The position numbers were made by a program, and so were the translations under genes. Positions 1 to 12,992 of a stretch of DNA of 35,343 nt are shown here, one piece after another. Within the stretch, counting starts at the first letter, position 1. Every line of letters begins with the position of its first letter. The notes beneath the pieces are model-generated. The model saw nothing but the letters and a program-made list of their open reading frames with translations. It ran no database searches and was not told the origin of the DNA. Source of the DNA: Clostridia bacterium (GTDB lineage Bacteria; Bacillota; Clostridia; Oscillospirales; Acutalibacteraceae); assembly GCA_017537245.1 (NCBI GenBank), contig JAFYLD010000026.1, forward strand, positions 1 through 35,343. Direction: 5' to 3'.

Positions 1-3
1 GCC

Positions 4-47
4 AAAAAAGAAGTAACTTTTGTCTACCAAAAGTTACTTCTTTTTTT
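4..47. terminator. Bidirectional intrinsic terminator
   Basis: A 19-bp perfect inverted repeat (arms 4-22 and 28-46) has a 5-base loop and ends in a T run on the plus strand and, because the left arm begins with A6, a T run on the minus strand as well. The upstream gene lies outside the window. Confidence 0.85.
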
Positions 48-50
48 ATC

Positions 51-220
51 CAAGCCGCAGGCTTGGCATATCATCACGCTTTAGCGTGTATATCATCGCC
101 GCAAGGCGTATATCATCACCGAAGGTGCATCCTCCTGCAGCTTGATGATATACCGCAACAAGTTGCGGATGATATGCAAAACTTCGTTTTGATGATATAC
201 AACGGCAAGCCGTTGATTTG
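51..220. repeat. Array of short hairpins separated by TATCATC / GATGATA spacers
   Basis: About seven small hairpins with different stems follow one another. The first four (for example AAGCC-gca-GGCTT) are each followed by TATCATC (69-75, 91-97, 111-117). After a switch near the CTGCAG at 135-140, the spacer becomes its reverse complement GATGATA (144-150, 168-174, 191-197) between hairpins such as CCGCAA-caag-TTGCGG and AACGG-caag-CCGTT. Period is 20-24 bp. The stems differ while the spacers are conserved, so the whole array is an inverted arrangement around its middle. It lies just upstream of the four-helix-bundle gene. I recall similar arrays in front of such genes in other Clostridia, but cannot check this here. 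Confidence 0.75.
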
Positions 221-262
221 TTTCCTGAAATGTGGTATAATGCGTTTGAAAGGAGTGTTTAT

Positions 263-610
263 ATGGCAAAAAATTACTTGTTGATCTATGCAGAACAGCT
301 TGCAACTGATGTCGAATTGCTTTGTCAAAACATAAAAGCACCGTCCAACACTCTTTTCCAAATTCGCAAAAGTTCCAGTAGTGTTTATGCCAATATTCGT
401 GAAGCTAATTACGGACAAAGTAAAGCGGATATGCTTTCGAAATTTGAAATTGCCCTCAAAGAATGTAGTGAAACCGAAGGCTGGTTGCAATTACTGCTTA
501 ATACCCAGGCAATAAGCGAAGAAGCATTTAAAGCGCATCGTAATCTTTGTGGGCGTATCAGACGAATGTTGATTGCAAGTTGCAAAACGCTGAAAGAGAA
601 TGCAAAATGA
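263..610 (+). CDS. Four-helix-bundle protein (23S rRNA intervening-sequence / bAvd-like family)
   Basis: A 115-residue, mostly helical protein with the family pattern of a first helix (LLIYAEQLATDVELLC), a central segment with SSSSVYANIREANYGQS, a third helix KFEIALKECSETEGWLQLL and a basic last helix. Members of this family (TIGR02436-like) are encoded in 23S rRNA intervening sequences or free in genomes, form oligomeric bundles and are thought to bind nucleic acid; the function of free copies is unknown. The start at 263 is chosen because AGGAG (251-255) precedes it at good spacing; a longer reading from 218 lacks such a site. The stop overlaps the start of the next gene (ATGA). It follows the hairpin array directly, suggesting that the two belong together. 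Confidence 0.8.
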   Translation: MAKNYLLIYAEQLATDVELLCQNIKAPSNTLFQIRKSSSSVYANIREANYGQSKADMLSKFEIALKECSETEGWLQLLLNTQAISEEAFKAHRNLCGRIRRMLIASCKTLKENAK

Positions 611-963
611 AAAGATTATATGTTTTGTTTCTTATTGTTGTTTTAATTTTTAGTCTTACCGCTTGTAATGAGGATTTGATAAAAGGAAGTATCGTAAGCC
701 AAGCAAGCGATACAACGGCAGAACTTGATATTATGCCACAAAAACTCTTTGAATTTGCAGAGATTGGCGATACTGTTGTTGTAACTGCTGGGAATTTTAA
801 ATCAGAAATGCCTTTTGTTGATAAATTGATTGCAGAAGACGGTAAATTGCAATTGTTTTATGATTCAGATAAACATAGTTTGATAATATGTGCCTATAAT
901 CAAAACATCTTTGAAAATTACAACCTTTCAATTGATGCTAAAGTTAAGATAACTAAAAAGTAA
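607..963 (+). CDS. Small putative lipoprotein
   Basis: A 118-residue protein with a lipoprotein signal: KR, then a hydrophobic stretch and the lipobox LTAC (Cys19), so it is probably lipid-anchored outside the membrane. The mature part has a short linker and a compact beta-rich domain with GDTVVVTAGNFKSEMPF, a pattern I associate loosely with SAF/SAM-hydroxide-adenosyltransferase-type barrels in clostridial lipoproteins; this is a guess, and no catalytic residue is evident. The ATG at 607 overlaps the TGA of the preceding gene by four bases, indicating translational coupling. A reading from an upstream ATG would place 20 hydrophilic residues before the signal peptide and is unlikely. Confidence 0.7.
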   Translation: MKRLYVLFLIVVLIFSLTACNEDLIKGSIVSQASDTTAELDIMPQKLFEFAEIGDTVVVTAGNFKSEMPFVDKLIAEDGKLQLFYDSDKHSLIICAYNQNIFENYNLSIDAKVKITKK

Positions 964-1025
964 CCACACTACTTTTGGTCGTTCTTACCCCTACTTACGC
1001 TACTTTTAGTCGCTCTTTCGCAAGA

Positions 1026-1058
1026 AAGAACTAACCGATAGGTTGGTTCTTTTTTTAT
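1026..1058 (+). terminator. Intrinsic terminator after the lipoprotein gene
   Basis: The stem AGAACTAACC / GGTTGGTTCT (one wobble pair) with loop GATAG is followed by a run of T. It isolates the upstream gene pair from the Ubl operon. Confidence 0.8.
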
Positions 1059-1191
1059 TTATTTCATCAAACATATTAGTCGGGACTTGAACCTTCGCTT
1101 CTTAATTTTTTCGACATATTCAAAGCAAAATTTACCAATTAAGGTTTTTATTGATTTTTTGCGTTTTTTTCTTGTTATTTTTTAGCAAATA
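1059..1191. other. AT-rich intergenic stretch
   Basis: No supported gene lies between the terminator and the operon promoter. Short poly-T tracts occur (around 1155-1180). A short match to a tRNA T-loop on the minus strand near 1080-1100 does not extend into a tRNA fold. Confidence 0.5.
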
Positions 1192-1220
1192 TTGACAACT
1201 TTCACACTATTATATATAAT
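1192..1220 (+). promoter_or_regulatory. Perfect consensus sigma-A promoter of the Ubl operon
   Basis: TTGACA (1192-1197), a 17-base spacer and TATAAT (1215-1220) match the housekeeping consensus in every position. The start codon of the first operon gene follows at 1270, leaving a leader of about 43 bases with a GGGGG ribosome binding site at 1258-1262. No operator-like palindrome is obvious. Confidence 0.9.
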
Positions 1221-1269
1221 ATTTTTATAATATTAATACTATATTATAGTACGATATGGGGGTTAAAAA

Positions 1270-3375
1270 ATGTCTGACGTTCAAAACAATCCTCTAGTTG
1301 ACACAACCGTTGTTATATGCGATCAGTGTGGCTGCGAGGTAAAAAACGACTCAAAGTTTTGCTCTTCATGCGGCAAGCCTATAATTGCAACACCATCCAA
1401 GTGTTTTTGCAGCGTGTGCGGTGAAGAACTAGAAGCAAACGAAAATTTCTGTCACAAATGTGGTTCTGCTTCAACACAGGTAAAGAACAACATTGCAATG
1501 GAAAACATCAATGCTTACAACAGCCAACTAGCCGGCGGACCGGCACAACCGATTTATACGCCACCGCAACCAGTGTCCCCTCAATACAATGCGTATCAAC
1601 CATATAATCCGCCGATGCAAAATTACCCAGTGCCCGCCAAACCGCCGAAGGTTAAAAAAATTGCTAGAATAAAAGATTTTTCAATTGTTGCAATAATCAG
1701 CTGGCTTCTTATTGCTTTTGCGGGCGTTATGTTTACAGATTACGCTATGTCAAATTTTGCCGCCCCAGAACATATCTATGGTTCGCGCTTTTCTTTTGCA
1801 GCTATTACCAATACCTTTTCTGCCGTTTCGTTATTCCTTGCGGCAGTTTTGGGTACCTTGTTCTGGAAAGACGGTAAAAAATTACGTGTTCTTCCGATAA
1901 TATCATTAACTTTAGGAATATTATCTTGCGCCGCTACTTCTTTTTTGTTCTATGGTTTTATTTCGTTTACAGAACTATTGCTACTTGGAATTATATGTGT
2001 AGTACTTTTGATAACACTCTTATATTCCACAAAAGTAATAAAAAGCAAAGCGCTTGCGTTATCATTAACAATACCATTTGCAGCAATAGGTATTCTAGGT
2101 TATTTTTTAACCATAATAGGAACACTTTCTTACGGCTTTGATATAGATCGGCTTGTACGCGCCTTTTTTAGCATTTCATACAGTGTACAATTCCCTTTCC
2201 TTTATTTTGTACTATTTGCTTTGTTGTTACTTCCATTTTCTCTCACAACCAAAAAGAAAGAGGACGAGCAACAACCCGATTCAACTACTGATTCGGATTC
2301 ACAATCGGATTTAGAGTCAGAACTAGAATCCGCACCCGTTACCACAAACGATAAAAAAGCAATTTTGCCAATTATAAAAAAACACATAGCAATTGCACTT
2401 ATTGCAATTATCGCCATATTTGGTATCATTTGGGCTTATAATCAAACCTGGACAACCATCGATAACGTAGTCGGTCAAAAATACGAGGATGTTTTAGACG
2501 AATACTCCGGCTTTGTAGACGTACAAGGTTACGCATATAGTGATACCATCGAAGAAGGTTGTGTAATCTCTCAAACTGTTGAAGCTGGCACCAAAATTTC
2601 AATACACGAAGGTTTCTTGGTTGTAATTAGTAAAGGCGCTGGCGTAAAAATACCAGAATTGACAAATATGCCGGTATCAACCGCAAAACAAACTATAGAA
2701 AATTTGGGATTAACCGTCTCTCTCGACTACGCATATAGCGATACCGTTGCCAAAGACAATATAATAAATGCCTCTAGTTATCACGTTGACGAAGGCGCAA
2801 CAGTAACTCTAATAGTAAGTATGGGGCCTGACCTTCGTGTTGAGGTACCATCAGTAGTAAATTTAACCGAATCGGAAGCAACCTCTGCTTTAAAGAAGGT
2901 GGGATTCAAAGTTACTGTTGTACGTTCCTACGAAAATTGTAACGCATATTACTCTGATTCTAAAGTTATATCTCAATCACATACAGGCAAGCAAGATCCC
3001 GGCTCTACCATCGTTATTACCATCACTCAGCCATCTATACAAATTACAAAGGTAACTTTTGATCAAAACTATGTTGGCGGCGTAGACGTTGGCATTAGCT
3101 TTAAAAACCTTGCCGGCAAACAAATAAAATACGTTGCATTTACAGCTAGATACAAAAACGCTGTTGGCGATAACGTATATTGCACTATTTGGAATCAATG
3201 CACCAAGATTCTTAATTATACCGGTCCTCTTAATTCAGGAAGAAGCGATACCGCTTATTGGGATGCAACCATCTACAACTGGACTTGTAGCCAAATTCAC
3301 TTTGATAAAATCGAAGTAACGTTTATGGATGGAACAACCCACGAAATGTATTATAGCGGCTATTGGTACAAATAA
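1270..3375 (+). CDS. Zinc-ribbon, seven-TM membrane protein with three extracellular PASTA repeats
   Basis: A 701-residue protein. Two CxxC-x10-CxxC zinc ribbons (Cys17/20/31/34 and 47/50/61/64) begin it, followed by a Pro/Gln/Tyr-rich linker, six hydrophobic helices (about 138-325), an acidic Ser/Asp/Glu linker (326-365) and a seventh helix (372-390). Three PASTA-type repeats follow (about 397-458, 459-524, 525-587), recognised by the VVGxxYEDVL / LTNMPVSTAKQTIENLG / VVNLTESEATSALKKVG pattern and closing beta strands. A beta-rich C-terminal domain (590-701) ends the protein. Seven helices put the zinc ribbons in the cytosol and PASTA outside, where PASTA domains of PknB kinases and PBPs contact peptidoglycan. 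No kinase domain is present. It is the first gene of the operon, so it may be the envelope sensor or anchor. The C-terminal domain is unassigned. Confidence 0.85.
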   Translation: MSDVQNNPLVDTTVVICDQCGCEVKNDSKFCSSCGKPIIATPSKCFCSVCGEELEANENFCHKCGSASTQVKNNIAMENINAYNSQLAGGPAQPIYTPPQPVSPQYNAYQPYNPPMQNYPVPAKPPKVKKIARIKDFSIVAIISWLLIAFAGVMFTDYAMSNFAAPEHIYGSRFSFAAITNTFSAVSLFLAAVLGTLFWKDGKKLRVLPIISLTLGILSCAATSFLFYGFISFTELLLLGIICVVLLITLLYSTKVIKSKALALSLTIPFAAIGILGYFLTIIGTLSYGFDIDRLVRAFFSISYSVQFPFLYFVLFALLLLPFSLTTKKKEDEQQPDSTTDSDSQSDLESELESAPVTTNDKKAILPIIKKHIAIALIAIIAIFGIIWAYNQTWTTIDNVVGQKYEDVLDEYSGFVDVQGYAYSDTIEEGCVISQTVEAGTKISIHEGFLVVISKGAGVKIPELTNMPVSTAKQTIENLGLTVSLDYAYSDTVAKDNIINASSYHVDEGATVTLIVSMGPDLRVEVPSVVNLTESEATSALKKVGFKVTVVRSYENCNAYYSDSKVISQSHTGKQDPGSTIVITITQPSIQITKVTFDQNYVGGVDVGISFKNLAGKQIKYVAFTARYKNAVGDNVYCTIWNQCTKILNYTGPLNSGRSDTAYWDATIYNWTCSQIHFDKIEVTFMDGTTHEMYYSGYWYK

Positions 3376-3405
3376 ATTTAAATCATAAACTGAGGAGATA
3401 AAAAA

Positions 3406-4197
3406 ATGGAAAACTACACTGAATTTTGTTCAAATTGCGGAAACCCCGTCGAAGCTAATCAAAGCTTTTGCGCTGCATGCGGCGCACCTAGAGTTGTTGC
3501 CCCTAAAAAGGTTTGCGAATCATGCGGAATGGAACTTACCGAAACCCAAGAGTTCTGCGGCAGATGTGGAGCAAAAGTGGGCGTACAAATCAGCGCACCA
3601 TCAACCGACGCTATTAATCAATATAACGCCGCTGTTCCAAAAAAGAAAAAGTCTATAGTTTTGCCTATCATACTAGCAATCGTATTATTAGTAGTTGCTG
3701 TAGGCGGTGTTTTGGTTTACACAAACATTCAAGAGCAAAACAGAATTGAAGCAATTGCCGAATACAAAGAAAATGCATATACCTTCTATTACGAGGTGGT
3801 TTCAACAGGCGCAACTATGGAAGACATCGGTAACGAAATTAAAACCTCTTGGTCAGCATACGTTACAAGCTCTCGTTATAACGGGGTAAAATACTCTAGC
3901 GTTGATAGCGCTGTGGCTGCTGCGCAATCATATATGTCATCTGAAATATCAACCGTAAAATCAAACAACTACACAATTGAATCGTTATACGACAGTTTGA
4001 GAGACGTACCTGATTCTAGCGACTATACATTAAGAGAAATTAAAAACCTTGTAGAAGAAGTATATGATGCGTATAAAGAAATGTATTCTTGCATAATATC
4101 ACCAAGCGGCAATTATACAAGCTGGACGTCAGAATTTAAGAGTGTTGATACTGAATTAGCTGACGTAGTCGGCGATTTGGGCGACCTCGTTAGATAA
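3406..4197 (+). CDS. Zinc-ribbon membrane protein with helical extracellular domain
   Basis: A 263-residue protein starting with two zinc ribbons (Cys8/11/22/25 and 37/40/51/54) very like those of the preceding gene, then a KKKK stop-transfer and one hydrophobic helix (84-105). The C-terminal part (110-263) is hydrophilic, predicted helical, rich in Ser/Tyr/acidic residues and should lie outside the cell. A GAGGAG site at 3392-3397 precedes the start, and it follows the PASTA gene by 30 bases. I recognise no named family for the outer domain. The shared paired zinc ribbons suggest that it and the PASTA protein dock on the same cytosolic partner. Confidence 0.8.
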   Translation: MENYTEFCSNCGNPVEANQSFCAACGAPRVVAPKKVCESCGMELTETQEFCGRCGAKVGVQISAPSTDAINQYNAAVPKKKKSIVLPIILAIVLLVVAVGGVLVYTNIQEQNRIEAIAEYKENAYTFYYEVVSTGATMEDIGNEIKTSWSAYVTSSRYNGVKYSSVDSAVAAAQSYMSSEISTVKSNNYTIESLYDSLRDVPDSSDYTLREIKNLVEEVYDAYKEMYSCIISPSGNYTSWTSEFKSVDTELADVVGDLGDLVR

Positions 4198-4200
4198 AAA

Positions 4201-4229
4201 CCATTACATAAAATCATTACATAAAGGAG
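4201..4229 (+). repeat. Short direct repeat before the Ubl start
   Basis: CATTACATAAA occurs twice in direct order, separated by AT, immediately before the AGGAG (4225-4229) of the Ubl gene. It looks like a small tandem duplication in the translation-initiation region and may have no function. Confidence 0.5.
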
Positions 4230-4237
4230 TTTTAATC

Positions 4238-4531
4238 ATGGGTAAAGTAAACGTAGTAATTGTAGATGCAACAGGAAACAAGGAACAAAAAGTAGGATTA
4301 CCTGACGATATCAAGTGCGGTATTATCATGGTAAAACTTATCGAAAAAATCAAACTTCCTTCCGTTGGTCCGGACGGAAATCCTATTAGCTATAAATTCA
4401 TACACAAAGTAACTGGTCGTCAATTGCTTGAAGCACAAACATTATCTGAAGCAGGTATAAAAGACGGCGACGTTCTTCGTCTACAACCAGAAATTACCGC
4501 TGGTGCAATTTGTTGTTTTACAAACAAATAA
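4238..4531 (+). CDS. Ubiquitin-like beta-grasp protein (YukD/EsaB-like) with short C-terminal tail
   Basis: A 97-residue protein with the beta-grasp order: strand VNVVIVDATGN, second strand, helix (CGIIMVKLIEKIKLP), then YKFIHKVTGRQLL, and the closing turn LSEAGIKDGDVLRLQPE, which matches the ubiquitin/YukD pattern (tLxeaGIkdGDvLrL). After the fold comes ITAG (Gly89) and then an eight-residue tail containing two Cys. Mature Ubls end in glycine for adenylation by E1, so removal of the tail after Gly89, perhaps by a JAB protein of the same operon, is a plausible inference. It lies 11 bases upstream of the E1 gene with an AGGAG site at 4225-4229. Without partners it would be called YukD/EsaB (type VII secretion), but no WXG100 or EssC gene is nearby. 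Confidence 0.88.
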   Translation: MGKVNVVIVDATGNKEQKVGLPDDIKCGIIMVKLIEKIKLPSVGPDGNPISYKFIHKVTGRQLLEAQTLSEAGIKDGDVLRLQPEITAGAICCFTNK

Positions 4532-4542
4532 GGGAGTAAAAC

Positions 4543-5739
4543 ATGGCAGAAAACGAAATTCAACTTAACAGTAGTGATTTTGAAGAAGATCGATATAGCC
4601 GTCTGCGCTTGATCCCTTGGTGGGATCAAGAACGTCTAAAAAATGCTACCGTAATGGTAGTAGGCGCAGGCGCTATAGGTAACGAACTTATTAAAAATCT
4701 CGCTTTGCTAGGCATAGGAAAAATACTTGTTTTTGATATGGATGATATTGAAAACACAAACCTTACTCGTTCTGTGCTCTATCGCGCAAAAGACGTAGGT
4801 AGGTACAAAGCAGAAGTTGCGGCCGAACGCGCGATGGAAATAAATCCCGATGTCAAAGCCCAAGCATTTATCGCAAATATTATTGACGACGTTGGTTTAG
4901 GCGTATTTCGCAGAATGGACGTAGTCCTTGGTGGACTTGATAACCGCGAAGCACGCTTATCAATAAATCAGTCTTGTTACAAGGTAGACAAGCCTTGGAT
5001 AGACGGCGCAATCGAAGCGTTGAACGGATTTGCTCGCGTTTTTATTCCAGGACATGGCGCATGTTACGAATGCACCATGACCGAAACAGACTGGATGCTA
5101 ATAAACAAAAGAAAGTCTTGTGCTTTACTTACCCACGCGCAAATGGCCGAAGGAAAAATTCCTACTACTCCGACATCTTCTTCTATTATTGCGGGTATTC
5201 AAGTGCAAGAAATGCTTAAATTGTTACATAGCGACCGCAACCTTCCAACACTTGCAGGTAAGGGTTATGTATTTAACGGACTAACACACGATTCTTACGT
5301 AGTAGAGTATCAAGAAAAAGCAGATTGTATGAGTCACGATACTTACGAAAAAATAATAGAAAAACCTTGGTCTGTTAAAGATACAACTCTTTCTTCACTT
5401 CTCGCTAATATCCGCGCCGACTTGGGCGAAAATGCAATCGTAGATTTTGATAGAGACATTGCTACTGTAGGTAAGTGTACCTGTGGAGAGTGCAAGGATT
5501 TGTACACACCGGTTCACAAACTAAAAGGCGATACGCTCACCTGTCCAAAATGTGGAAATCAAATGTCGTTTGAAAGTTTTCACTCAATAAACGGTACAGA
5601 AGATTATCTGGACAAAACCTTGTTCGAAATCGGCATACCACTACTACACATCGTAGGCGGTCGTGTCGGCATAAACACGACTTACTATGAATTTTCTGGC
5701 GATGAACCAGAAGTTTTCAAAGAACTAAGGAGGGACTAA
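4543..5739 (+). CDS. E1-like Ubl-activating enzyme (ThiF/MoeB/UBA fold)
   Basis: A 398-residue ThiF-fold protein. It has the nucleotide loop GAGAIG (Gly41/43/46), acidic residues after strand 2 (Asp65/67), NTNLTR with Arg76, and GGLDN with Asp133. CYEC (Cys174/177) and, later, Cys262/His265 could bind zinc. Cys193 in RKSCALL sits where UBA3-type E1 enzymes carry the thioester cysteine, followed by PTTPTSSSIIAGIQ, the usual crossover helix. The C-terminal third (about 275-398) is an addition with Cys312/314/317 and Cys334/337 and a beta-rich end, perhaps a UFD-like E2- or Ubl-docking domain. It would adenylate the Ubl C-terminus and pass it to the E2. The next gene starts one base after its stop. 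Confidence 0.92.
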   Translation: MAENEIQLNSSDFEEDRYSRLRLIPWWDQERLKNATVMVVGAGAIGNELIKNLALLGIGKILVFDMDDIENTNLTRSVLYRAKDVGRYKAEVAAERAMEINPDVKAQAFIANIIDDVGLGVFRRMDVVLGGLDNREARLSINQSCYKVDKPWIDGAIEALNGFARVFIPGHGACYECTMTETDWMLINKRKSCALLTHAQMAEGKIPTTPTSSSIIAGIQVQEMLKLLHSDRNLPTLAGKGYVFNGLTHDSYVVEYQEKADCMSHDTYEKIIEKPWSVKDTTLSSLLANIRADLGENAIVDFDRDIATVGKCTCGECKDLYTPVHKLKGDTLTCPKCGNQMSFESFHSINGTEDYLDKTLFEIGIPLLHIVGGRVGINTTYYEFSGDEPEVFKELRRD

Positions 5740-5740
5740 T

Positions 5741-7666
5741 ATGACGGCTAGAATGAGACGTCTTACATCTGACTTTGAACAAATTAAAAAGGATTTCACA
5801 AATCACAAAAACATAATCGTCACCCCAATAGGTGCAGAACCAGCTGAAAAATATCATATTACATACTTTGTTAACGGTATTTATCTTTTACCTGATGGAA
5901 AAATCGAAATGTTGGCGCGACACGAAGTAGAAATAACACTTCACGCCGAATATCCACGTTATAAACCACTTTGTCGTATTCTTACTCCTATTTGGCATCC
6001 TAATTTCAGAGATGGTCAAATTTGTATTGGTGACATTTGGGGCGCTGGCGAATCACTTAGCGATATTATTATAAATATCGGCGACATGATACAGTACAAA
6101 TCCTGGAATTCTTTTAGTCCTCTTTCTGCCGATGCGGCTAAATGGGCTATAGAAAATAAGCACCTATTCCCTGTCGGCAACGCAGAACTCTACGTAGCAG
6201 ACTATGCTTCTGCAAAAGATACTGTAGAAATCGATTTGTTCGATGAAAACGACGAAGTTATCGCCGACGACGATTCGCAAGCACAACCTGCTGTTGAATC
6301 AGAACCAACCGCAGAGCCTATAGCTGACGTAGATTCTACCGACGAACCCTCATTTTCTGCTATGGAAAACGAAGAAAACCTAGACGGCAACGACTTCGAA
6401 ATAACTGCAGAAGAACTTGCCGGCATTGAATTTGTTCCAACCGCGCAAAGAATGCAAACTATTTCTAACAACGGAATGGTCAAGGGCGGAAAAATAAACT
6501 TTAAAACCGTTCTTATAAAAGGCTTGATTTGGGCTCTTATTGGATCAATACTAGGCTTTGCTATAACCGAAATATTTGGCGCGGGTGGCGCAAAGAATAG
6601 CTTTGTTGCCGATATCATGGGTTATTCTTCTCTATCACGTTATTATGAATATTCCGAAATCGCAGACGAAGCTTTTTCAGATGCGTTCGCCTACTTTGAA
6701 AGCTATTGCGCAGCCAATGGCAAGAGCACCGATGATAGCACCGCATTTGCACAATGGTATCTATATGACGCGCCAGAAGCGGCCCAAAACCTCTTGGATA
6801 GATATCAAGAGTATGACGAAATGGCCGATGATGCATTCTACGACGCGTACATGTACGAATTCTACGAAAACGAAGATGAATTAATAGATACGTCTAAAAA
6901 CATTCAGCGAGTTGGTACTGCAATATGGTCAGGATTTATAGCATTATTCATTGGCTTATTCCTTGGCATGGGCGAAGGTATCTTCTACGGCTCAGCATCT
7001 AAGGCTGTTACATACGCTTCTATTGGCGCCGGTATATCACTAGGCTTAGGCTTTATTAGTGGTTATTTAGCTCAATGGATGTACGCAACTCTACTTGAAG
7101 ACAACGAAAGTGATTTGTACGCAGCAATAATCAGAGGTCTAGGCTGGGCAATAATGGGTCTTGGTATCGGTTTGGCAATCGGTCTTATTAAACCTGCCGG
7201 AAAGAGAATTTTGTTCTGCTCTCTCGGTGGTTTGGCAGGCGGTTTCCTAGGCGGTTTCCTATTCAACTACGTATTTGATATAATTCCAGACGATATGATA
7301 GCTCGCGGCGTTGCGATTGTTATTATGGGTCTACTTATCGGTCTTGGTGTTGGTTTCCTTGAGCAGTTCGCAAAACAGGCATGGCTTAAAGTTATACGTG
7401 GCGAATTTGAAGGCAAAGAATATCTCGTATTCTCAGGTACTACAAGCATCGGTAATACTGGTAAAAATACCATTGTTCTTTTCAAGGACAAACTCGTTGG
7501 TCCGCACCATTGCGACATTGTTTTACAAGGAAACAGATATGTCTTGGTTGACTGTGGAACACCTATGGGAACAGTTGTTAACGGTATGAGAATCAACAGA
7601 CACAATTTACGTCACGGTGATACGATAGCAATTGGTAATTCCGTTTTAGTATTCAACACTAAATAA
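5741..7666 (+). CDS. E2-like conjugating domain fused to six-TM region and FHA domain
   Basis: A 641-residue protein. Residues 1-160 form an E2 (UBC) domain: TLHAEYPRYKPLCRI, then WHPN (His86-Pro87-Asn88), then GQICIGDIW with candidate thioester Cys95. A long acidic linker follows (161-250). A helix at about 257-280 leads to an acidic, Tyr-rich outer segment (285-388), then five Gly-rich helices (392-541). The C-terminal 85 residues form an FHA domain (SIGNTGKNTIVLF, HHCDI, RYVLVDCG, TVVNG, LRHGDTIAIG). Six helices place both E2 and FHA in the cytosol. FHA domains bind phosphothreonine; the usual GR and SxxH motifs are changed here to GN and PHH, so binding is uncertain. AGGAGG lies inside the end of the E1 gene (5728-5733), so the two are translationally coupled. 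Confidence 0.9.
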   Translation: MTARMRRLTSDFEQIKKDFTNHKNIIVTPIGAEPAEKYHITYFVNGIYLLPDGKIEMLARHEVEITLHAEYPRYKPLCRILTPIWHPNFRDGQICIGDIWGAGESLSDIIINIGDMIQYKSWNSFSPLSADAAKWAIENKHLFPVGNAELYVADYASAKDTVEIDLFDENDEVIADDDSQAQPAVESEPTAEPIADVDSTDEPSFSAMENEENLDGNDFEITAEELAGIEFVPTAQRMQTISNNGMVKGGKINFKTVLIKGLIWALIGSILGFAITEIFGAGGAKNSFVADIMGYSSLSRYYEYSEIADEAFSDAFAYFESYCAANGKSTDDSTAFAQWYLYDAPEAAQNLLDRYQEYDEMADDAFYDAYMYEFYENEDELIDTSKNIQRVGTAIWSGFIALFIGLFLGMGEGIFYGSASKAVTYASIGAGISLGLGFISGYLAQWMYATLLEDNESDLYAAIIRGLGWAIMGLGIGLAIGLIKPAGKRILFCSLGGLAGGFLGGFLFNYVFDIIPDDMIARGVAIVIMGLLIGLGVGFLEQFAKQAWLKVIRGEFEGKEYLVFSGTTSIGNTGKNTIVLFKDKLVGPHHCDIVLQGNRYVLVDCGTPMGTVVNGMRINRHNLRHGDTIAIGNSVLVFNTK

Positions 7667-7712
7667 TAGTATCAAATTTAAAAACACAAATAATCTCGGA
7701 GGCGAGTGCATC

Positions 7713-8639
7713 ATGAAATTTAGAAAAATCCTATTTGCAATAATTATAATAATAACGATAACGCTCGCCTCCTCTATTCCTGTATCAGCAATTGATTTCG
7801 ATGCCGAAGAAAAATACAACTCTGTTTTTGTTATATCATCAGGTCAAGCATTGGGTAGCGGATTTGCCATTGGAGAAAATTGTGTAGTAACAAATGCACA
7901 CGTTATAGATAATCAAAACAGCATTATTTTGACCGGTTATAACGGAAACAAGTATCCGGCTTCGTTGATAGGATTTGATGATAACAAAGATATCGCCATT
8001 TTAGCGGTTGATAACATAACCTTTGTCCCACGTACAATAGCCACAGTGAAAAATGCCGGAGACGACGTTTACGCAATCGGTGCTCCCAAAAGCATGGCAT
8101 ACACATTAACCAAAGGCGTTGTTTCAGCTAAAGAACGAAAAGTAGGAACTCAAACGTATATACAAACCGACGCAGCAATCAATGAGGGTAATAGTGGTGG
8201 TCCACTCATCGATGCAAACGGAAACGCAATCGGTATGAATACCTTAAAAATGATAGATAGTGAAGGCATTGGTCTTGCTATACCAATGAACGTTGTTAGC
8301 GAATTTGTTAAATCACTAAATATCAAAACAGACAAAAACGGCAACGTTTCAGAAAAAATTTCTGGAACAACGTCGGGCAACTACAACACACCTACCGAAT
8401 CTAACAGCAATAACAGTAGCAGTGATAACAACAGCAACAATAATAACAACAAAACCCCAGGTTCAGCTACTACGAGCAAAAAAATCACTGGCACAAAAAT
8501 ACTCTTTATTGTGTTATGTGCCTCAGTTTTACTTAATGCCGTACTTACAATATTACTAATATTAAGTAAAAGAAAAATTCCACCCGCAAATTACGACCCA
8601 CGCGAAAGAACCGATTTTGAAATCGACATATTGGAGTGA
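7713..8639 (+). CDS. Exported trypsin-like serine protease with C-terminal membrane anchor
   Basis: A 308-residue protein with a signal peptide (charged start, long Ile-rich core, probable cut after SIPVSA). The S1/HtrA-like protease domain carries a complete triad: His63 (VVTNAHVID), Asp93 (DNKDIAIL) and Ser161 (NEGNSGGPLI). An Asn/Ser-rich linker (about 220-255) leads to one hydrophobic helix (265-285) and a short basic-acidic tail. There is no PDZ domain, unlike DegP/HtrA. The catalytic domain should be outside, so it cannot act directly on the cytosolic Ubl; it may process the PASTA or helical ectodomains of the same operon. GGAGG at 7698-7702 precedes the start, and the next gene begins five bases after its stop. 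Confidence 0.9.
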   Translation: MKFRKILFAIIIIITITLASSIPVSAIDFDAEEKYNSVFVISSGQALGSGFAIGENCVVTNAHVIDNQNSIILTGYNGNKYPASLIGFDDNKDIAILAVDNITFVPRTIATVKNAGDDVYAIGAPKSMAYTLTKGVVSAKERKVGTQTYIQTDAAINEGNSGGPLIDANGNAIGMNTLKMIDSEGIGLAIPMNVVSEFVKSLNIKTDKNGNVSEKISGTTSGNYNTPTESNSNNSSSDNNSNNNNNKTPGSATTSKKITGTKILFIVLCASVLLNAVLTILLILSKRKIPPANYDPRERTDFEIDILE

Positions 8640-8644
8640 GATAT

Positions 8645-9604
8645 ATGTCTAAAAAGAAAAACTCTAAAAAAACGCCCAAATCATCGGTAGCAGCTACAAA
8701 TCAACTACCGCAAAATATTATAATGATTGGCGAAATGGTTGAAGAAAATAAAAATATTTATATATCACAACCAGTATATAGAGCCATTCACAAATTCACC
8801 AAAAACAAAACCGTTAACGAAAGCGGCGGCATGCTTATTGGTGAAACAATCGAAAGTTTCGGCAAAACCAACATTATTATAAATGGATTTATCGAAGCAA
8901 AGTTTTGCGAAGCTACCTCAACCACGTTAAAGTTTACACACGAAACGTGGGAATACACTCATAAAGAAATGAACAAAAAGTTCCCAAAACAAAAAATTGT
9001 TGGTTGGATACACACACATCCTAATTTTGGTATATTCCTTTCCGAATACGATAAATTCATCCACGAAAACTTTTTTGGTGACGAGCAACAAATTGCATAC
9101 GTTATCGATCCTATCCAGAACATCGAAGGATTTTATTTTTGGATAAACGGAAAGATTGAAAGATGCAAAGGTTTTTATAAATTTGATAAAACCGGAGTTA
9201 AATTAGAAAGCGCACCAGCAACTAAAAACACCGATAACATAAAAAACAACTCTTATTTTTCAATTAAAAATGCAGTTATTTTTGCACTTGCGATATGTTC
9301 GCTTTTCCTGGTGCTAACCAACAGGCAACAAAGCAAAGAAATAAGCAAATTGCAAAACCAACAAAAAAATACCACACAAGCCTTACAGCAACAAATCGCC
9401 TTTTTAAATGACGAAATTAATACTCTTAAAAATCAATTGAACAATTATTCAGACAAATTAATTGTTGATACTCCAAGCAATAATAATCCTATTATTGAAG
9501 AAACCCAAGAGGATCAAGAAACCCCAGAAAACGAAGAAACTGTTCCTGACACAAACACAGAAGATTCAACTTCTTCGACAAGTACTACGATTGGAGAAAA
9601 TTAA
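8645..9604 (+). CDS. JAB/MPN (JAMM) peptidase with TM anchor, predicted active
   Basis: A 319-residue protein. The N-terminal JAB domain (about 20-195) has every JAMM residue: Glu67 in MLIGE, His123 and His125 in IHTHP, Ser133 and Asp136, giving HxHx7SxxD. These enzymes are zinc isopeptidases that cut after the Ubl C-terminal glycine, so it may mature the Ubl or remove it from targets. A hydrophobic helix (208-226) follows, then a coiled coil (about 228-268) and an acidic Thr/Ser-rich tail, probably outside. The ATG at 8645 is preferred over a GTG nine bases earlier because GGAG (8633-8636) is correctly spaced only for the ATG. Its JAB domain is closely similar to that of the gene at 9971. 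Confidence 0.9.
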   Translation: MSKKKNSKKTPKSSVAATNQLPQNIIMIGEMVEENKNIYISQPVYRAIHKFTKNKTVNESGGMLIGETIESFGKTNIIINGFIEAKFCEATSTTLKFTHETWEYTHKEMNKKFPKQKIVGWIHTHPNFGIFLSEYDKFIHENFFGDEQQIAYVIDPIQNIEGFYFWINGKIERCKGFYKFDKTGVKLESAPATKNTDNIKNNSYFSIKNAVIFALAICSLFLVLTNRQQSKEISKLQNQQKNTTQALQQQIAFLNDEINTLKNQLNNYSDKLIVDTPSNNNPIIEETQEDQETPENEETVPDTNTEDSTSSTSTTIGEN

Positions 9605-9605
9605 A

Positions 9606-9938
9606 ATGAAAAATTACGTTGGAAAAACATGCCCGTTCTGTAGAACTCCTTTTACCGAAGACGACGACATCGTTATTTGCAGCAGTTGCGAAATGCCACA
9701 CCATAAAGATTGTTGGATTGAAAATCAAGGTTGTACAACATTTGGTTGTATGGGAACCATTAATTCCGCAACCAACACCCCTAACACCGTTACAACAAAC
9801 GTAATTTCCTACAACAATGCACCTGAATTTGTTTTTTGCACTCGTTGTGGCGCTCGTCATGCGGCAGGATTATCATTTTGTAGCAAATGCGGTACCCCTT
9901 TAAGGAAAAACACTCCCCCTCAAACCATGATTAGATAA
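9606..9938 (+). CDS. Prokaryotic RING-like protein with C-terminal zinc ribbon (candidate E3)
   Basis: A 110-residue protein with a bacterial RING-like binuclear treble clef at 9-48: CPFC, CSSC, PHHKDCW, GC and a last Cys48, that is Cys9/12, Cys25/28, His32/33, Cys36 and Cys43/48. This is the spacing of the prokaryotic RING family I (Prok-RING). A polar linker and a CxxC-x10-CxxC zinc ribbon (Cys78/81/92/95) follow. RING domains bring E2-Ubl to substrates, so a ligase or E2-docking role is likely by analogy but unproven. There is no membrane segment. The start at 9606 lies one base after the JAB stop with GGAG at 9593-9596; a longer reading in this frame would overlap the JAB gene and has no RING-related content. 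Confidence 0.88.
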   Translation: MKNYVGKTCPFCRTPFTEDDDIVICSSCEMPHHKDCWIENQGCTTFGCMGTINSATNTPNTVTTNVISYNNAPEFVFCTRCGARHAAGLSFCSKCGTPLRKNTPPQTMIR

Positions 9939-9970
9939 AATATATTTTCATAACACAAGGAGCTTTTCTT

Positions 9971-11101
9971 ATGGAAAAAGAATTTGATATTGAAGTAACC
10001 AGCGAAAATACCGCTAAAAGTTCAAATGTACAACTCCCACTCAACATTCTTTCGTTTGGCGAAATAGAACCAGATGACGTGAAAGTATACATAAAACAAG
10101 ACGTCTATAAGGCTCTAGAAAAATATGCATCATCCGATACAAGTAAAGAGCTTGGTACAATATTGATTGGTAATTACTGTGAAGAACTTTCCAAAACACA
10201 CGTTATCATTTCAAATTATATCGAAGCCAAATATACAGATGCCTCTGCGTCTACACTAACCTTCACCCACGAAACATGGGAGTACGTTCACAACCAACAC
10301 GAAACTCTTTACCCAGATCAAAAAATCATTGGTTGGCAACATACCCATCCAAACTATGGCATTTTTCTTTCGAATTATGATCTATTTATACAAGAAAACT
10401 TCTTCAACTTACCTGCACAAATAGCATACGTTATTGATCCAATTCAAAATTTACGTGGATTTTTCCAATGGAAAAACGGTAAAATCGAGAAGTTAAAAGG
10501 CTATTACATATACGATGAAGTAGGCAAACCAATCAAAATAGAGCAAAAGAAAATTGAGAAAAAATCAGAAAAAAGCTCAAAATCCAGCAAAATATTAGGT
10601 GTCTTGCTAGCACTTTTGTTGGTAGCGACAGTTGTTCTAGGTGTGTTCACTATCAACCTAAACAACAAATACAATCAACACTTAAAAGAACTCGAAGCAA
10701 TTTCAGCGCAATTAGAAGAAAAAAATCAAATAATTAGCACCCAAGAAGAAAATATAGGTGTGTTACAGTCAGAATTAGCAAACCTTGTTATTGAAAACGA
10801 TGATGCTACAACGGCACAAACACTTATTGCCGCAATAGAAAACAATGAAATTTCTTTTGACAACCAAGACGAAATTTTATCGCTATTAAAAGAGTTGGTA
10901 AATGATGCGGCTAGCAATGACAATCAAAATGAAATTAAATTTATTGCATACACCATACAACCTGGTGATTCATTGTCAAAAATCTGCAACAAATATCAGT
11001 TGAATTACAGTGCCGTTAAAGATATTATTTTAACTCTAAGTGGAATTACCAACCCAAATTCAATTTATGTTGGTCAAATCATAATTCTACCTGTTCAATA
11101 A
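9971..11101 (+). CDS. JAB/MPN protein with TM, coiled coil and LysM; predicted impaired or inactive
   Basis: A 376-residue paralogue of the JAB protein at 8645. The HxHx7SxxD part is kept (His124, His126, Ser134, Asp137), but the position of the catalytic Glu is Asn68 (ILIGN instead of MLIGE), with no gap in the alignment around it. One hydrophobic helix (207-228) is followed by a coiled coil (232-275), an acidic segment, and a LysM domain at about 324-376 (YTIQPGDSLSKICNKY to VGQIIILP). The JAB part should be cytosolic and LysM outside, bound to peptidoglycan. JAMM pairs with one active and one inactive member are known in the proteasome lid (Rpn11/Rpn8) and signalosome (CSN5/CSN6). This protein may be such a scaffold; that is inference. 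Last gene of the operon. Confidence 0.9.
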   Translation: MEKEFDIEVTSENTAKSSNVQLPLNILSFGEIEPDDVKVYIKQDVYKALEKYASSDTSKELGTILIGNYCEELSKTHVIISNYIEAKYTDASASTLTFTHETWEYVHNQHETLYPDQKIIGWQHTHPNYGIFLSNYDLFIQENFFNLPAQIAYVIDPIQNLRGFFQWKNGKIEKLKGYYIYDEVGKPIKIEQKKIEKKSEKSSKSSKILGVLLALLLVATVVLGVFTINLNNKYNQHLKELEAISAQLEEKNQIISTQEENIGVLQSELANLVIENDDATTAQTLIAAIENNEISFDNQDEILSLLKELVNDAASNDNQNEIKFIAYTIQPGDSLSKICNKYQLNYSAVKDIILTLSGITNPNSIYVGQIIILPVQ

Positions 11102-11128
11102 TTTCAAATTTACAATTTGTTATTGAAC
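11093..11128. promoter_or_regulatory. Long inverted repeat spanning the operon end and the next promoter's -35 box
   Basis: GTTCAATAA (11093-11101) pairs with TTATTGAAC (11120-11128), and inside it CAAATT (11105-11110) pairs with AATTTG (11114-11119), with a three-base bulge. It includes the stop codon of the LysM gene on one side and the TTGAAC -35 box of the XRE gene on the other. No T run follows, so it is not a standard terminator; it could be an operator or an mRNA-end hairpin. Confidence 0.65.
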
Positions 11129-11151
11129 ATAAAAGTGAAATAATATATAAT
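11123..11151 (+). promoter_or_regulatory. Sigma-A promoter of the XRE regulator gene
   Basis: TTGAAC (11123-11128), 17-base spacer, TATAAT (11146-11151). The -35 box is part of the inverted repeat at 11093-11128, so a protein bound there would affect this promoter. Confidence 0.8.
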
Positions 11152-11183
11152 ATACTTAATATGATTTGAAAGGATGTGGCGGC

Positions 11184-11774
11184 ATGCCGGTATGTGAAGA
11201 AAAATTGCGCGAAAACTTTGCAAGAAATTTAACCCATTATCGCAAGGCTTTGTCTCTTACGCAAACCGACCTTGCCGAAAAGCTTAATTATTCTGACAAA
11301 TCTATCTCCAAGTGGGAGCGTGGCGATGGTCTACCCGACCTTACCGTAACGGCGCAGCTTGCCGAAATTTTTGGTCTTACGGTTGACGATATGCTTGCCG
11401 ACAAACCCCGCCGCAAACTTATGACCACACGTAACAAGATAATCATTACTTTACTATCTATTGGTATTGCGTGGCTTGTAGCGACTGTGCTATTCTTCTT
11501 GTTCGAGTTGGTAGCACCTAACTCCTACGATTGGTGGTTACTATACGTTTACGCTATACCTACCAGCGCAATAGTTGGCATTGTATTTTCTTGTATATGG
11601 TGGAAAAAGATACATATATTTGCAAGTATCTCAACACTCATTTGGTCGGTGGCGTTATGTATTTTGCTTACTGTTATCGCCCACGTAAACGAGCCTAAAA
11701 TATACCTTATATTTATAGTCGCAGGCGTTGTTCAAGTAATGACTATACTGTGGTTCTTAATTAAAAAACATTAA
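11184..11774 (+). CDS. XRE-family regulator with four-helix membrane domain
   Basis: A 196-residue protein. An XRE helix-turn-helix occupies about residues 8-62 (LTQTDLAEKLNYSDKSISKW, then ERGDGLPDL and LAEIFGLTVDDML). Four hydrophobic helices follow (about 82-105, 112-135, 140-163, 170-190), so the DNA-binding part is tied to the membrane. The ATG at 11184 is chosen for its AGGA at 11171-11174; an in-frame TTG at 11166 is less likely. It has its own promoter and terminator, so it is not strictly part of the Ubl operon, although its position and the inverted repeat leave open that it regulates it. Confidence 0.85.
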   Translation: MPVCEEKLRENFARNLTHYRKALSLTQTDLAEKLNYSDKSISKWERGDGLPDLTVTAQLAEIFGLTVDDMLADKPRRKLMTTRNKIIITLLSIGIAWLVATVLFFLFELVAPNSYDWWLLYVYAIPTSAIVGIVFSCIWWKKIHIFASISTLIWSVALCILLTVIAHVNEPKIYLIFIVAGVVQVMTILWFLIKKH

Positions 11775-11779
11775 TGTTT

Positions 11780-11816
11780 AAAACCGATTTGCATGAGAAT
11801 ATGTAAATCGGTTTTT
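11780..11816 (+). terminator. Intrinsic terminator after the XRE gene
   Basis: AAAACCGATTTGCAT and ATGTAAATCGGTTTT form a 15-pair stem (one wobble) with a six-base loop, ending in T6. Confidence 0.9.
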
Positions 11817-11820
11817 TCTA

Positions 11821-11849
11821 TTGAAATATTATTTATTATAAGATATAAT
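11821..11849 (+). promoter_or_regulatory. Sigma-A promoter of ychF-alr
   Basis: TTGAAA (11821-11826), 17-base spacer, TATAAT (11844-11849), directly after the XRE terminator. Confidence 0.85.
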
Positions 11850-11891
11850 ATAAAATTAGGATTTAAACAAATTTCAAGGAGATAAATTTAT

Positions 11892-12992
11892 ATGAAACTA
11901 GGTATGGTAGGACTTCCAAACGTTGGTAAGTCAACACTTTTTAACGCTATAACAAATGCGGGCGCGCAGTCGGCTAACTACCCTTTCTGCACAATTGAGC
12001 CAAACGTTGGTATGGTTAGCGTTCCTGACGAACGTCTTGAAAAATTGGCCGAAATCTATACCCCAGACAAATTCACCCCTGCGGTAATCGAGTTTGTTGA
12101 TATTGCGGGTCTTGTAAAAGGCGCGTCAAAGGGCGAAGGTCTTGGTAACAAATTCCTTAGCAATATTCGTGAGGTTGATGCAGTAGTTCACGTTGTACGA
12201 TGCTTTGAAAGCACCGATATCATTCACGTAGAAGGTTCAGTTGACCCAATTCGCGATATTGAAACAATCAATCTTGAACTTATTTTCTCTGATATTGAAA
12301 TTACACAGCGTCGTCTTGACAAAGCGACAAAAGCGCTCAAGGGCGACAAGTCTATGCAAGCAGAGGTTGATTTCTTAAAGCGTCTTATCGCTCACCTAGA
12401 AGAAGGTTTGCCGGCGCGCTCGGTAGAGATTACTTCTGATACTGATGCCGAAGTTTTGGCTACCACCTCTCTTCTTTCTGCAAAGCCTGTAATCTACGCT
12501 TGCAACATGAGTGAAGATGATTTTAAAAACGGTATCGACTCAAATGCCGGCTATCTTGCAGTAAAGGAAGCGGCAGCAAAAGAAAATGCCGAAATTCTTC
12601 CAATTTGCGCAGCTCTCGAAGCAGAGCTTTCTGGTCTTGATGACGAAGAAAAGGCTATGTTCCTTGAGGATTTGGGTCTTGAGCGTTCGGGTCTTGACCG
12701 CATGATTCAAAAATGTTACAGCCTATTAGGTCTTATTTCTTATCTTACCGCAGGCAAGCCTGAAGTTCGCGCTTGGACTATTGAGCGCGGCACCAAGGCT
12801 CCACAGGCTGCCGGTAAAATACACACCGACTTTGAACGCGGATTCATTCGCGCCGAGGTTATCGCGTATGACGACTTTATGGCTTGCGGCGGCAATATGG
12901 TAACCGCAAAAGAAAAAGGTCTTGTTCGTAGCGAAGGTAAAGAATACGTTATGAACGACGGCGATATTGTTCTATTTAGATTTAACGTATAA
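11892..12992 (+). CDS. ychF: YchF/Ola1-family P-loop NTPase
   Basis: A 366-residue protein of the expected length for YchF, an Obg-related NTPase that prefers ATP and binds ribosomes. The P-loop GLPNVGKST begins near residue 7, switch [22 protein letters not shown] is intact, and the G4 motif is NMSED in place of NKxD, as expected for this ATP-preferring family. A coiled-coil insert lies at about 135-170 and a TGS domain ends the protein ([20 protein letters not shown]). AAGGAG precedes the start. Alanine racemase follows 36 bases later without a terminator. An ordinary housekeeping gene. Confidence 0.97.

Follow-up and report, generated by a model that had tools for sequence, protein, structure and literature searches.

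A predicted membrane-mounted ubiquitin-like conjugation and deconjugation operon in a Clostridia bacterium

The nine-gene locus

A stretch of 35,343 nucleotides of contig JAFYLD010000026.1, from the draft genome of a Clostridia bacterium of the family Acutalibacteraceae (GenBank assembly GCA_017537245.1), carries an operon of nine open reading frames (ORFs) that encodes a ubiquitin-like modifier (Ubl) together with proteins resembling the enzymes that attach and remove ubiquitin. We refer to the whole stretch as the window and to the nine ORFs, all on the + strand at 1270-11101, as genes A to I (Table 1); other loci and genomes carry L and G numbers. The draft comprises 1,587,611 bases in 56 contigs with a completeness of 79.6%, and the window opens its contig at base 1.

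Domains were assigned by a Pfam search of the nine operon proteins, and membrane helices were called by a hydropathy script rather than a trained predictor. A preliminary description had reported nine same-strand genes behind one consensus promoter, encoding a Ubl, an E1, an E2, a RING-like protein and two JAMM proteins together with PASTA, LysM, FHA, and secreted-protease modules. Gene count, strand, and promoter were borne out, Pfam supports every domain named, and the Ubl/E1/E2/RING-like/two-JAMM set is complete with its catalytic residues intact. The description's gaps of 1-46 bases held at their upper bound (46 bp) and failed at the lower one, as genes F and G overlap by 4 bp, and its statement that most parts are membrane-bound agrees with the hydropathy calls, which place helices in the products of genes A, B, E, F, G, and I.

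The promoter matches the sigma-70-type consensus at 12 of 12 positions and is the only such site within 900-11900, an interval in which promoter-like sites are otherwise no more frequent than in shuffled DNA (36 in total, against 34.0 with a standard deviation of 6.4). The RING-like product of gene H scores 60.2 bits against PF14446 (Prok-RING_1; cut-off 29.1), and the family alignment makes ATG 9606 its most likely start, rather than the longer TTG 9462.

Table 1. Features of the operon in the window, with Pfam E-values where available
Feature	Position	Strand	Content
Promoter	1192..1220	+	TTGACA-17-TATAAT; 12/12 consensus, sigma-70-type
Gene A	1270..3375	+	Two zinc ribbons, about seven hydrophobic helices, three C-terminal PASTA domains; PASTA 1.5e-26, Zn_Ribbon_1 2.7e-10
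Gene B	3406..4197	+	Double zinc ribbon 9.3e-13, one membrane helix, 160-aa ectodomain; receptor-like
Gene C	4238..4531	+	YukD-type Ubl precursor, 97 aa; YukD 2e-11
Gene C, core to Gly89	4238-4504	+	Conserved
Gene C, tail	4505-4528	+	Variable, eight residues
Gene D	4543..5739	+	E1, ThiF/MoeB-type adenylyltransferase; ThiF 1.7e-56; Cys193, CxxC pairs
Gene E	5741..7666	+	E2 (Cys95, HPN), about five membrane helices, FHA-like domain; UQ_con 1e-7, FHA 1.4e-12
Gene E, FHA-like domain	about 7388-7663	+	C-terminal end of protein
Gene F	7713..8639	+	HtrA/DegP-type serine protease flanked by N- and C-terminal membrane helices; Trypsin_2 6.2e-28
Gene G	8636..9604	+	JAMM/JAB metalloprotease, one membrane helix, Thr/Glu-rich tail; JAB 6.2e-10
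Gene H	9606..9938	+	Prok-RING_1 and zinc ribbon, helix-free here; Prok-RING_1 1.8e-16
Gene I	9971..11101	+	JAMM/JAB 1.8e-8, membrane helix, LysM 9.7e-10
Gene I, membrane helix	about 10592-10648	+
Gene I, LysM	10949-11092	+

Conservation and recurrence of the set

The enzymes of the operon find their top sequence matches in the Protein Data Bank (PDB) among eukaryotic ubiquitin-system proteins: UBE2A/B for the E2, ubiquitin E1 for the E1, and RPN11 for the JAB domain. The E2 domain alone (160 aa, submitted to phmmer as a single sequence) matches UBE2B best (8.1e-7) and reaches 119 distinct PDB sequences at E <=0.01, with eukaryotic E2s among the matches listed (the best 60 of the 119). With a six-member E1 profile, ubiquitin E1 is the top match (2.8e-38); the listed alignments stop at or before residue 228, and a C-terminal UFD-like domain is not resolved in them. 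For the JAB domain of gene I, the top match is RPN11 (8.7e-9). The identities given to the E1 and E2 in the preliminary description thus pass at the level of sequence.

Catalytic positions are invariant among relatives, the aligned rows being profile matches, from which very divergent members would escape. The HPN motif of the E2 precedes its cysteine, and H, P, N, C, and W are kept in 48 of the 48 lettered rows (one of 49 is gapped); Cys193 of the E1 is present in all 67 aligned rows (one of 68 gapped). The JAMM Glu, His, His, Ser, and Asp stand in 61/61 rows, the HtrA catalytic triad in 30/30, and the Cys/His ligands of the RING-like domain in 76-77 of 77. The FHA-like domain departs from its family. 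Phosphothreonine binding by FHA domains involves a conserved arginine and residues of the Ser-x-x-His type. In 35 of 40 rows here the arginine is replaced by asparagine, beside a PHHC-like loop, making the domain non-canonical and a phosphothreonine-reading role for gene E doubtful.

The modifier itself was followed through 71 profile-found Ubl ORFs (67 of the 68 loci of the contig scan described below, L040, L113, L114, and the window; no ORF of L111 matched the profile). PE(I/M)TAG is present in 70 of them, the exception (L110) being a 59-aa fragment. What follows the motif varies freely: nothing in 18 ORFs, one residue in 13, two to ten in 32, 23 in one, 107 in one, 249 in one, and 318 in four. 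The conserved end is not a selection artefact, since the scan patterns matched other parts of the protein. An invariant glycine with an unconstrained tail behind it is what a protease-trimmed precursor would show, as demonstrated for the Caldiarchaeum subterraneum ubiquitin precursor and the Rpn11-like enzyme that cuts it (PMC5654768, PMC6043591). By eye, the six tails longer than 100 aa contain hydrophobic or lipoprotein-like stretches, and in L061, L073, L077, L080, and L082 the Ubl is fused in frame to an extension of 249-318 aa that opens with a membrane- or lipoprotein-like segment; such Ubls would be held at the membrane until trimmed.

Across loci with an E2-FHA protein, median pairwise identity is 0.89 for the Ubl, 0.80 for FHA, 0.79 for the E2, 0.71 for the E1, 0.63 for the RING-like protein, 0.57 for JAB, and 0.50 for HtrA, and fourfold sites differ by 0.68-0.73 across all parts (Ubl 0.69), which is close to saturation. 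An identity of 0.89 at nearly saturated silent sites argues that the Ubl is old and very strongly constrained, not recently spread, and by this measure it is evolving in a ubiquitin-like manner. Covalent conjugation of the Ubl is a prediction, on which the invariant PE(I/M)TAG and the catalytic residues bear only indirectly.

Relatives were sought in two ways. Searching 391 genomes of the class for Prok-RING_1 gave matches in 53 (21 above the cut-off), including six PF14446 loci besides the window (L035-L040) that are whole or fragmentary operons sharing the window's layout. A Ubl-profile scan of contigs >=3 kb from 84,980 species genomes gave 68 loci, mainly in Clostridia and also in Synergistota, Chloroflexota, Armatimonadota, Ignavibacteriota, and Bacteroidota, the phyla being those of the record titles, with the reservation that bins may contain foreign contigs. 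The profiles used for locus content were built from the window and L035-L040, so that five of the 37 loci found to encode an E2-transmembrane (TM)-FHA fusion (the window, included in that number, and four duplicating L035-L038) helped to build them.

A recurrent order, Ubl-E1-E2/FHA-HtrA-JAB-RING-JAB/LysM, is kept in Clostridia with gene losses. Among 26 E2-FHA loci with >=4.5 kb of downstream sequence, JAB is present in 26, HtrA in 21, a RING-like gene in 20, JAB with LysM in 18, and two or more JABs in 15; among 26 with >=4.5 kb upstream (window excluded), a zinc-ribbon/RING-like gene precedes the Ubl in 22. The existence of 37 E2-FHA loci and of a recurrent order shows that the core did not come together by accident. 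The neighbourhood survey that the preliminary description had asked for thus found homologous loci keeping the LysM and protease genes, and the association with envelope modules stands for HtrA, JAB-LysM, and E2-FHA, which recur in Clostridia and a few other phyla. It fails for PASTA, which the profile search found at none of the 26 upstream-covered loci; the nine-gene order as such is not supported, and PASTA, seen only at the window locus, was rejected as a core part and is regarded as a local accessory.

In a tree of 64 E1 rows (bootstrap not fully settled), 36 E2-FHA loci and six cut or incomplete loci form one group with support of 100/100, within which the Synergistota and Chloroflexota rows are nested. 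A minimal set, consisting of Ubl, E1, a short E2 (189-192 aa) without FHA, JAB-LysM, and RING, is found in L040, L087, L088, and L091. Individual loci also vary: an Armatimonadetes locus (L108:8532-17152) has two E2 genes, three RING-like genes, two JABs, HtrA, and a separate FHA protein; L074:241-5500 has two E2-FHA genes and no E1 detected by profile; and L083 has a 324-aa protein without a Pfam match between E2-FHA and HtrA.

Ignavibacteria provide a second arrangement, with the set divided between loci. Ignavibacteria-type loci have Ubl, E1, and usually a RING-like gene by profile, and the profiles found neither E2 nor JAB at them. When seven such genomes (six with Ubl-E1-RING; in L106, only Ubl was seen) were searched for E2, each had exactly one, with a JAB gene adjoining in 7/7; the adjoining JAB protein has a hydrophobic helix in 7/7 and LysM in 5/7 by Pfam or 6/7 by our own profile. 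Over 197 genomes of the Ignavibacteria class (the class of G870), Ubl was found in 16 and E2 in the identical 16, on separate contigs every time; at least six of these genomes came from the earlier scan, and kinship reduces the 16 to fewer independent events. As JAB-LysM stands beside E2 even where the genes are unlinked, a LysM-tethered deconjugase would be a deep feature of the system. One Ignavibacteria RING-TM protein (L098:11456-12310) has a C-terminal NTF2/SnoaL-like domain.

The membrane proteins follow a regular pattern. E2-FHA proteins have four to six helices (38 proteins), JAB proteins one (47/53), HtrA proteins two (24/28), and E1 proteins none (36 examined); one helix is present in 35 of 40 upstream zinc-ribbon/RING proteins and at least one in 45 of 50 RING-like proteins of E2-FHA loci, gene H having none. 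The 35 ectodomains longer than 60 aa fall into six mutually dissimilar clusters (11, 10, 7, 5, 1, and 1 members), as though a fixed inner zinc module were combined, receptor-fashion, with swappable outer parts.

Candidate function and competing explanations

We read the operon as a system for reversible Ubl conjugation on the inner side of the membrane, probably an inducible envelope-stress or defence response that is carried sporadically, and give this reading a probability of roughly 0.6. Its components do not share one level of confidence. That the genes form a working conjugation and deconjugation cascade is very probable, and we think it most likely to be set into the membrane, with LysM anchoring the deconjugase to the wall; that the cell wall controls this cascade is about an even bet; and a role in defence rather than stress is tentative.

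The cycle that we envisage would begin with a Ubl precursor, from which a JAMM protease would strip the variable tail to expose ...PEITAG, as the tail pattern suggests. The E1, with its intact motifs, would adenylate the Ubl and hand it to the E2 cysteine. Held in the membrane by its own helices beside the FHA-like scaffold, the E2 would then conjugate the Ubl to membrane-proximal proteins, while RING/zinc-ribbon membrane proteins, with exchangeable ectodomains as receptors, might guide the reaction. Architecture and conservation suggest that JAB-TM-LysM would remove the tag, its external LysM pinning the enzyme at peptidoglycan, and in that event wall state or position could control deconjugation. 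More speculatively, the outward-facing HtrA-like protease might process the same envelope proteins or receptors. A bolder form of this reading, which we consider possible and no better than that, is transmembrane signalling in which wall state or position, sensed through LysM and ectodomains, balances the membrane-fixed E2 against the wall-tethered JAMM, giving a receptor-linked, multi-phylum system distinct from Bil, CBASS, and Bub.

Several observations weigh against this account. The Ubl has no significant match in a sequence search of PDB chains, and its PE(I/M)TAG ends in a single glycine, not Gly-Gly, the next residue being variable or absent. The RING-like domain has C4HC3-like ligand spacing and weak PDB matches, to a histone methyltransferase (0.0022) and to Pygopus chains, the matched parts of which we take to be PHD fingers; the 'RING' label accordingly rests on the Pfam family. 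Of the 53 class genomes with PF14446 matches, only seven, the window's included, have other parts of the set alongside in the loci examined. Gene H is thus no more than a candidate E3. The assignment of inner and outer membrane sides is derived from hydropathy only, and the profiles miss LysM on JAB in 8/26 and HtrA in 5/26 clostridial-type loci. The system is also rare: E2 was found in one of 99 relatives' genomes, namely the window's own, and in none of 60 other genomes of the genus (a number of them incomplete), and 3/398 genomes of the phylum carry the system, the window's own included. Such rarity argues against a general wall pathway.

Prok-RING_1 also occurs alone. A second such gene lies elsewhere in the genome of the window (G000:C33:50325-50483, in L018 and at L042:7573-8493), and near it searches with the nine proteins (tblastn/blastp; L018 and 20 kb of L042) found no other part of the set, and twelve loci of the same family or order have stronger Prok-RING_1 matches and no other set parts found within their short lengths. 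These stand-alone loci indicate that the domain is used outside Ubl systems too.

The strongest competitor, which we hold to be possible if clearly less probable than the reading above, is a membrane-mounted anti-phage or anti-invader system in the style of Bil, Bub, or CBASS, in which an M78 peptidase would remove a helix-turn-helix (HTH) repressor on stress, the Ubl would be placed on invader or membrane proteins, and the envelope modules would sense or act on the infected envelope. The rarity just described suits it, as does the finding of the system in only one of 116 genomes of the family of G481 (G481 itself), and the distribution looks like that of an accessory, possibly defensive, system as opposed to a standing wall-sensing pathway. 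Several relatives have an HTH gene and a membrane-bound M78 peptidase upstream, with an integrase in some (HTH in 10, M78 in 7, and integrase in 4 of the 26 upstream-covered loci), and Pfam found M78 six times and phage integrase five times among 131 flanking proteins; certain Bub and CBASS operons are likewise under the control of HTH+peptidase pairs (PMC13373217). In the 1.27 kb between the start of the contig and gene A, the HTH-M78 pair was not seen. Patchy spread, together with the HTH-M78 pair that certain relatives carry close to integrases, hints at a stress or defence function that is inducible and mobile.

The right edge of the insert is likewise in favour of that explanation. Congener DNA becomes alignable from window base 11106/11107, directly past the last stop codon, in three of six congeners (L119, L120, and L122), with different genes beyond that edge in L119 and L120 and the L122 contig ending soon after; the right boundary of the inserted operon is clean and sharp at 11106. 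The left edge is not fixed, as window 1-616, with an ORF resembling a four-helix bundle and its surroundings, resembles a dispersed repeat of the genus and the contig itself starts at base 1; part of 1-1250 is matched in 41 of 61 genomes of the genus. We considered and rejected an HTH gene at 11166-11774 as a regulator of the operon, because operon-free congeners carry the same gene beside YchF at that place.

Other results are less favourable to a defence system. PADLOC matches among the 131 flanking proteins are few (restriction-modification and mad3 models, among the best 25 of 182 families), with no clear excess, in a search run without a control set. No match was found in viral contigs with the E1 (single sequence) or the E2 (alignment), nor in phages or plasmids with the E2-FHA protein. 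Immune parts evolve fast, unlike the extremely conserved Ubl and E2, and JAB-LysM is left unexplained. As observations in their own right, upstream M78 peptidases of L057:8145-8957 and its kin have a membrane helix, followed in L057 by a short cysteine-containing tail, and a Roseiflexaceae locus (L071:3-8791) appears, by eye, to lie beside a type I restriction-modification cluster. Such an M78 peptidase, the putative cleaver of the repressor, might thus also respond to an external cue.

An accessory role in type VII secretion (T7SS), with the Ubl as YukD/EsaB and the FHA protein as part of the secretion machine, is very improbable. The Ubl does match Pfam YukD, YukD and FHA are usual in T7SS (PMC11217815), and WXG100 matches occur in three of nine other carrier genomes tested (two over the cut-off). 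In one carrier (L083; G1170:C89, apparently G369:C89, a 71-kb contig), five WXG100 matches occur about 13 kb away from the operon, on what seems to be one contig with it. Neither the window's own genome (79.6% complete) nor six of the nine other carriers yielded a WXG100 match, and T7SS membership was rejected on that search; no EssC/EccC-like ATPase is present among the nine operon proteins, the ATPase having been sought in these and not genome-wide. T7SS Ubls moreover lack a C-terminal Gly-Gly (PMC11217815), whereas the Ubl here has an invariant glycine and is accompanied by E1, E2, and JAMM.

Still less credible is the view that the Ubl cascade is soluble and has the envelope genes beside it by chance. 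It stands for PASTA, a gene of the window locus only, and finds some encouragement in the four minimal loci, whose short E2s lack FHA and which have no HtrA. For LysM, HtrA, and FHA it is largely refuted by the recurrence of HtrA (21/26) and JAB+LysM (18/26), by the 37 loci in which E2-TM-FHA is a single protein, and by JAB-TM-LysM in minimal loci and in the unlinked loci of another phylum. A sulfur-carrier pathway, in which Ubl, ThiF-like E1, and JAB would make a thiocarboxylate for cofactor or cysteine synthesis, is the least probable of all: the E1 is ThiF/MoeB-like and Ubl/E1 sets with sulfur-metabolism genes have been described (PMC1779556), but the canonical E2 (HPN and catalytic Cys), the RING-like proteins, and the membrane mounting all speak against it, and none of the nine proteins has a sulfurtransferase or biosynthetic domain by Pfam.

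If reversible conjugation at the membrane is the right reading, the operon may be a bacterial cousin of the human protein-tagging machinery that acts at the cell surface. Membrane and LysM tethering, kept across phyla, pose a testable question, namely whether the cell wall controls tagging inside the cell, and as carriers include Massiliimalia massiliensis (L062) and Anoxynatronum buryatiense (L087), study in culture is probably feasible.

Comparison with known systems

The operon brings together, in one place, all parts of a eukaryotic cascade: an E2 with HPN and Cys (BilB has CEHH instead; PMC11354881), an Rpn11-like JAMM, an E1 resembling ubiquitin E1, a RING-like protein, and a modifier of extreme conservation. 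Bil (BilABCD) resembles it in having Ubl, E1, E2, and JAB in a single operon, but BilA has two Ubl domains and the four Bil genes are described without RING, FHA, LysM, or HtrA in the accessible portion of PMC11354881; gene C encodes 97 aa with one YukD stretch. At E 0.01 no PADLOC family matches the Ubl, E2-FHA, or RING-like proteins, and the matches for the E1 include BilD (1.9e-7) behind 23 E1-E2 models (among the best 25 of 33 families).

CBASS and Bub share with the operon E1/E2-type conjugation and, by some Bub operons, HTH+peptidase regulators (PMC12355090, PMC13373217). Cap2 of CBASS is an E1-E2 fusion in CD-NTase systems (PMC12355090, PMC13373217), whereas E1 and E2 are separate here and no nucleotidyltransferase, as would mark type II CBASS, was found among the nine proteins. 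T7SS YukD/EsaB shares the Ubl fold family and the frequent company of FHA proteins; its Ubl is without a C-terminal Gly-Gly, and T7SS is defined by WXG100 and EssC (PMC11217815).

Bacterial operons of Ubl, E1-like, E2-like, and JAB genes were first predicted by Iyer, Burroughs and Aravind in 2006, with YukD among the Ubls (PMC1779556). In the sections accessible to us, that work ties YukD to ESAT-6 export and not to E1/E2, and describes E2-like families that lack part of the classical active site. The C. subterraneum operon has been proved biochemically, comprising a ubiquitin precursor whose tail is cut by an Rpn11-like JAMM, an E1, an E2, and a small RING (PMC5654768, PMC6043591), and complete operons in some bacteria are mentioned as well (PMC5654768). 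With archaeal and eukaryotic ubiquitin systems the window's operon has in common a canonical E2 (HPN and Cys) and an Rpn11-type JAMM. It differs from the C. subterraneum system, whose ubiquitin ends in Gly-Gly and for which membrane- or wall-binding parts go unmentioned in the accessible text, by its single-glycine, YukD-type Ubl and its membrane- and LysM-linked parts.

In the literature that we found, we recognised no description of the present arrangement, which is no proof of its absence from print; in those publications we did not come upon a JAB-TM-LysM tether conserved across phyla, an E2-TM-FHA fusion with HtrA, the signature of a trimmed tail on a YukD-type Ubl, or the HTH-M78 pair. 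The closest kin are the YukD/Prok-RING_1 systems: Burroughs, Iyer and Aravind are said to have predicted, in 2011 and from comparative genomics, sets of YukD-type Ubl, E1, E2, Prok-RING_1, and JAB. Bacterial versions of Prok-RING_1 have membrane helices, according to the Pfam note on the family. Both likenesses are found here, a YukD-like Ubl in an operon with E1, E2, and JAB, and a PF14446 protein in the set. The preliminary description is therefore confirmed in what it observed and partly supported in what it concluded, its 'distinct type of system' being too strong where such sets had reportedly been proposed before: the operon is of a kind predicted earlier, and its envelope-tethered form appears to be new.

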